Below the pieces are notes generated by a model. It saw nothing but the letters and a program-made list of their open reading frames with translations, made no database searches and was not told the origin of the DNA. Position numbers and translations under genes: made by a program. A DNA stretch of 51,115 nucleotides from Bifidobacteriaceae bacterium (GTDB lineage Bacteria; Actinomycetota; Actinomycetes; Actinomycetales; Bifidobacteriaceae): contig JAQXZM010000050.1 of the NCBI GenBank assembly GCA_029227215.1, forward strand, positions 1 through 51,115, in the 5' to 3' direction. Of the stretch, positions 9,178 to 9,342 are shown piece after piece (the first letter of the stretch is position 1; each line of letters starts with the position of its first letter).

Positions 9178-9342
9178 TGCCACGTTTTTTACCTATTTTA
9201 ACCCCTTTACTGCCACGTTTTTCGAGTTCGAAAGAGGGATTACTGCCACGTTTTTGCGGTTTGAAAAGGCATCAAGTGCCACGTTTTTTGACTTTCAGAG
9301 GAGGTCTGCTGCCACGTTTTTTGACTTTCGGCAGCCCGCCGT
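9178..9342. repeat. Five tandem repeats, exact 33-bp period, core TGCCACGTTTTT
   Basis: Core starts at 9178, 9211, 9244, 9277 and 9310; fills the space between the MFS stop (9344) and the DUF4143 ATPase upstream region. Confidence 0.95.

Follow-up and report, generated by a model that had tools for sequence, protein, structure and literature searches.

Plasmid iterons are direct repeats spaced near integral helical turns and read by winged-helix Rep proteins. The array described here lies in a 51,115-nucleotide stretch of Bifidobacteriaceae DNA (GCA_029227215.1, contig JAQXZM010000050.1, positions 1 to 51,115; hereafter the window), upstream of an ATPase gene of the AAA_14-DUF4143 type. It shares with iteron systems the combination of direct repeats at near-integral helical turns and a winged-helix protein, but here the genes are chromosomal, paralogue-rich and encode ATPase-nucleases, and no replication function is indicated. 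We propose that the array is probably the cognate operator, or binding-site array, of the adjacent ATPase, bound by that protein's own winged helix.

The ATPase matches the model of PDC-S01 (9.8e-169), a PADLOC phage defence candidate composed of an ATPase and a PD-(D/E)XK domain and reported to rank fourth in frequency among prokaryotic defence types, with 29,494 bacterial and 9,986 archaeal cases (PMC12988326). The domain composition is the same, and an E. coli relative sits among defence genes. The open-access passages located on PDC-S01 cover its prevalence and evolution, and mention no upstream array, DNA target or mechanism; relative to PDC-S01 as described there, the array is a new part. 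A literature search of open-access sources, with preprints and most subscription journals outside its range, returned no description of arrays upstream of DUF4143 genes. An experimentally tested precedent is RptR, a regulator encoded in a defence locus that binds three direct repeats and thereby represses its own promoter; it is a 9-kDa dimer, with one conserved 6-bp palindrome and 9-bp repeats (PMC12255303). In contrast, the binder proposed here is a 458-amino-acid ATPase-nuclease, the units lie 22–34 bp apart, and each paralogue has its own core.

The array and the adjacent ATPase gene

An exact search bore out the sequence-only reading of an invariant 12-bp core repeated at a constant 33 bp: TGCCACGTTTTT occurs on the plus strand (AAAAACGTGGCA in the sense of the ATPase gene) at the five positions listed in Table 1, all four spacings are 33 bp, and exactness is confined to the core, the other 21 bp of each unit being variable. 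With up to two mismatches, TGCCACGTTTTT has 10 matches in the 51-kb window against a shuffle mean of 2.66 (maximum of 100 shuffles, 6), and a pair spaced by 33 bp was confined to this site in a search of the whole 2.0-Mb metagenome-assembled genome (MAG). The placement given by that reading was also correct: the array extends up to the stop codon of a major facilitator superfamily (MFS) gene (9344–9346) and lies 160–325 bp upstream of the ATPase start, an ATG at 9018 preceded in gene sense by AAGGAGG, a good ribosome-binding site. The sole match in an Rfam scan of the window was a tRNA at 12419–12491.

Both Pfam PF13173 (AAA_14) and PF13635 (DUF4143) scored above cut-off in the ATPase. Its AlphaFold2 model (pLDDT 87, pTM 0.87) comprises an AAA domain, a helical lid, a winged helix and a C-terminal domain whose matches to Cas4 and YraN models indicate a PD-(D/E)XK nuclease fold; the domain names for residues 214–437 are a reading of predicted secondary structure and profile matches. 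The Walker A/B and nuclease residues are intact, with G31, G36, K37, T38, D98, E99, E347 and K388 invariant and D373 and E386 near-invariant. The best Foldseek matches of the model were DNA-bound archaeal Orc1/Cdc6 and STAND ATPases, which likewise have an AAA ATPase followed by a winged helix; however, TM-scores were about 0.26–0.39, those of 0.26–0.31 not amounting to global similarity to Orc1/Cdc6, and the protein described here has an added nuclease domain and belongs to a candidate defence family. A sequence search of the PDB returned weak P-loop matches only and no relative, and a PHROGs search gave nothing useful.

Arrays across the DUF4143 family

The sequence-only reading of an iteron-like regulatory array was not only supported but extended, as the association with DUF4143 genes recurs across many genomes of several phyla, albeit with differing cores. 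In the MAG itself, eight of the nine DUF4143 genes (AAA_14, winged helix, PD-(D/E)XK) have their own upstream array, and the cores are all different. The period is 23 bp at five of these genes (C126:26312, C126:33373, C80, C108 and C34) and 33–34 bp at three (C50, C117 and C86), while the ninth gene, C126:34253, has an inverted repeat only. Arrays were detected as chains of 10-base seeds compared with dinucleotide shuffles. Genome scans with position weight matrices, which were trained on each array's own sites and are thereby biased in their favour, found the sites of each of the eight arrays confined to their own locus, except for one extra C34 site. DUF4143 genes in other Bifidobacteriaceae genomes behaved in the same way. 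Three DUF4143 genes lie within 8.4 kb of contig C126 (G000:C126, 26312–34699): two of them have 23-bp arrays, whose cores differ, and the third has the long inverted repeat only.

We surveyed 221 bacterial DUF4143 genes, taken from Bifidobacteriaceae, from a phylum-level Chlamydiota draw and a class-level Bacteroidota draw, and from a Mollicutes genome, searching the 330 bp upstream of each gene at a shuffle significance of p ≤ 0.05. A constant-period array was present upstream of 71 of the 221 genes versus downstream of 8 of 217, and by group, arrays of the two main period classes were found in Bifidobacteriaceae (42/93 genes), the Chlamydiota draw (11/74), the Bacteroidota draw (10/47) and Mollicutes (1/4). 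The median gap from the last core to the start codon, the latter chosen heuristically, was 28.5 bp, and a single genome held up to 22 DUF4143 paralogues. Among plasmid-borne relatives, Collinsella showed spacings of 33 and 33 bp with core GGAAAAACGTGG again, and Agathobacter 33, 33 and 33 bp; in Glaesserella (32/33) and Acinetobacter (two units) the pattern was seen by eye and was individually non-significant (p = 0.08 and 0.43).

A scan of 85,666 genomes, one per species, found two cores 33 bp apart at five loci. In both Alloscardovia macacae and a Mollicutes MAG, the array stands just upstream of a DUF4143 gene in the same orientation, the ATPases being 73% (over the matched start region) and 28% identical, respectively. 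The outermost repeat of the A. macacae locus (L016, 1030–1125) encodes the ...AKNVAE end of an upstream mscS-like open reading frame, so that the 3' end of this neighbour consists of array sequence. The exact core is too rare for a family marker and was rejected as such: a single genome among 301 in the order has it, and no viral contig does.

Array periods fall at 22–23 or 31–34 bp, with spacing counts over all arrays of 70 at 23 bp, 67 at 33 bp and 32 at 32 bp. Periodicity was detected in 29 of 420 control upstream regions of the same genome, with roughly half of these cases falling on multiples of 3 bp; five had a period of 31–34 bp and none one of 22–23 bp. None of the nine testable protein clades (at least two arrays each) mixed 23 and 33 bp, against a label-shuffle mean of seven, and mixed clades never numbered fewer than three in 100,000 label shuffles. 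An array's period is characteristic of its protein clade. Units are palindromic in 20 of 64 arrays (12 of these at p ≤ 0.01; e.g., ACACATTATTCAAAGGAATAATGTGT), as expected for a dimer site. The units stand in tandem before the proposed binder's gene, with a constant spacing close to whole helical turns, which is the arrangement of an operator or iteron array. A small DUF4143 clade (L075, L077) has a 19-bp spacing.

Array and gene are one inherited unit. The window copy sits between the MFS gene and a permease gene, and in the same-genus genome G003 the MFS gene is followed directly by the permease gene, with 75 unrelated bp in place of window positions 9340–7667. Among related loci, homology of every pair that reaches upstream begins inside the array and never past it. 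Between an Acinetobacter plasmid and four E. coli chromosomes, the DNA is 95% identical from the array (position 2390 of L297) through the gene and the next gene; presence in E. coli is patchy (4 of 5426 genomes), and the neighbours there are hsdR, mads1, HipA and dinD, a defence-gene neighbourhood. A search of E. coli with the Glaesserella gene gave no match. Among Vibrio plasmids, closely related genes have either three units or one.

Proposed core recognition and competing explanations

Core similarity follows protein identity in both period classes (Mantel p of about 0.001). In partial Mantel tests of the 33-bp class, run on a realigned set with four plasmid relatives added, the winged helix alone had an independent contribution (r = 0.164, p = 0.0095; AAA domain p = 0.64, lid p = 0.26, nuclease p = 0.48). 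All eight gene pairs at least 70% identical share their core, each of these pairs being between genomes, while none of 77 same-genome pairs does. The recognition region SARSNRYASSF of the window protein goes with core AAAAACGTGGCA, TARQNRYASSF with AAAAACGTTACA and NARQARYASSF with AAAACGTGACA; core TTCGGATTTTGGTA is common to three genomes. Core and protein covary as would a binder and its site, with domain resolution limited to the 33-bp class.

In the operator reading, the ATPase-nuclease would read the core via its winged helix, and several molecules or dimers would align along the same face of the DNA at intervals of two or three helical turns. With the array just upstream of the gene, bound molecules would control its expression, most likely by autorepression, and the bound state may also hold the enzyme inactive on DNA. 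A private core per paralogue would prevent cross-talk and so allow a genome to have many members. The metagenome locus L041 carries, in gene sense, TTGTCA-17-TATAAT with the core within the spacer, a -35/-10 promoter pair that favours repression. We infer binding, autorepression, the resting-state role and any phage-defence link from sequence patterns, for which a self-addressed operator near the promoter is the most economical account. More tentatively, and with considerable doubt, PDC-S01 enzymes could be stored on their private arrays, where assembly would both silence the gene and keep the nuclease inactive, and release, which may come about, e.g., when a phage takes over the host DNA or when nucleotide is lost, would trigger defence. 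If so, the DNA array would be a cis antidote and a switch, and diversified specificities would let many such switches coexist in a genome.

Several observations weigh against the operator reading. A sigma-70 promoter scan of the window's own array gave no match, and in the 23-bp class no single domain stands out in the covariation test. An array is detectable in only about one-third of the sampled family, and the rest may be without one or have degenerate ones; moreover, the sampling is biased toward high-scoring loci, and genes of the same clade are not independent. The same core pair occurs with no DUF4143 gene within reach in three chance-like loci (L013, L014 and L015), of which L014 encodes part of a pentapeptide-type protein and L015 has a spacing of 20+13. 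The first, in the Chlamydiae MAG G347, has about five 33-bp units at 3570–3730, their cores being dyads (CACGTTTTTCGTTGGAAAAACGTG), and its contig lacks a DUF4143 gene; this genome has 14 DUF4143 matches, one of which has CGAAAAACGTGGTAG units 33 bp apart with modest shuffle support (3/50), and nearly the L013 core is present at a DUF4143 gene on another contig (L094). Among metagenome loci with the core twice at loose spacing, L041 alone showed a detectable DUF4143 relative, and most of the other core-pair loci have periods such as 15–16, 27 or 46 bp, resembling other repeat families. Loci L020, L025, L027, L038, L039, L048 and others, with TGCCACGTTTTT at 15–16, 31–32 or 46 bp and no detectable DUF4143 relative, belong to unrelated repeat families.

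That the array marks an end of some mobile or homing element, with the ATPase-nuclease as a transposition- or homing-like enzyme and the repeats as its recombination site, is unlikely, even though array and gene are gained or lost together, homology between the Acinetobacter plasmid and the E. coli chromosome starts at the array, the nuclease residues are conserved and presence in E. coli is patchy. No matching array marks the other end, as the downstream count shows, so that the arrays do not behave as transposon ends; the E. coli and Acinetobacter homology continues past the gene, whose end is therefore not an element end; no target duplication was seen; G003 has the 75 unrelated bp instead of the unit; and ordinary exchange of defence genes accounts for the same facts. 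We consider it very unlikely that the arrays serve as iterons in replication or partition, i.e., an Orc/Cdc6-like initiator on its origin stranded in the chromosome. The AAA and winged-helix domains, the best Foldseek match to archaeal Orc1/Cdc6 bound to origin DNA, and a period close to whole helical turns, like that of plasmid iterons, would fit such a system, but the TM-scores are low, the C-terminal nuclease domain has no counterpart in Orc1/Cdc6, the many paralogues per genome lie among ordinary genes, and no other plasmid genes were seen beside the window copy.

Binding by a separate host regulator or nucleoid protein in place of the ATPase is improbable to a degree between these two. 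Binding by the ATPase is itself what we infer, and operators of other regulators also occur upstream of defence genes, as with RptR (PMC12255303); however, cores differ among paralogues of the same genome and sit only at their own gene, they covary with the ATPase across phyla, and no recurrent partner gene was found across the loci inspected. Differing cores among paralogues likewise make the curved DNA or phased T-tracts of the sequence-only reading insufficient alone. There is next to no chance that the array is a decayed coding repeat, as that reading had also suggested, or fortuitous low-complexity sequence. The unit of 33 bp does equal 11 codons, but the periods of relatives (22, 23 and 32 bp) are not multiples of three, homology between related loci begins within the array rather than in the gene beside it, and no repeat follows the MFS gene of G003, the closest same-genus genome, on which grounds the coding repeat was rejected; the array is also far beyond shuffle expectation.

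If they are operators, the arrays are a first concrete DNA target to test for a large, uncharacterised, candidate anti-phage family. Each member would have a private DNA ligand of defined sequence, so that binding, footprint, stoichiometry and regulation could be assayed at a known site, and the many natural pairs of protein and DNA specificities would be a resource for learning how winged helices recognise DNA. The two spacings (22–23 versus 31–34 bp) would inform on DNA assembly by two branches of the family.

Feature coordinates and other repeats

Table 1. Features of the array and ATPase gene, in window coordinates.
Feature	Position	Strand	Basis
Array and ATPase gene as a unit, present in window and absent from same-genus G003	7667..9340	-	Locus comparison
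Five-unit 33-bp array, proposed cognate operator of the ATPase	9178..9342	-	Core positions, spacing, uniqueness in genome
Core 5 (closest to ATPase)	9178..9189	-	Exact core match
Core 4	9211..9222	-	Exact core match
Core 3	9244..9255	-	Exact core match
Core 2	9277..9288	-	Exact core match
Core 1 (closest to MFS stop)	9310..9321	-	Exact core match
AAA_14-DUF4143 ATPase gene, 458 amino acids, PADLOC PDC-S01	7642..9018	-	Pfam, PADLOC; 73% identical start region in Alloscardovia macacae
AAA ATPase domain, residues 1-150; invariant G31..G36K37T38, D98E99	8569..9018	-	Pfam, conservation, AlphaFold2
Winged-helix region, residues 236-315, proposed core reader	8074..8313	-	AlphaFold2, covariation
PD-(D/E)XK nuclease-like domain, residues 340-437; E347, D373, E386, K388 conserved	7708..8001	-	Cas4/YraN profile matches, conservation, AlphaFold2

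The window holds other repeats as well: about six 16-bp ACAGATCAGGCGCCAA-like units at 39277–39429, downstream of a LuxR-type response regulator gene (38207–39271), and five 18-bp units CCTGGCGGGAAGCGGATT at 18772–18858.
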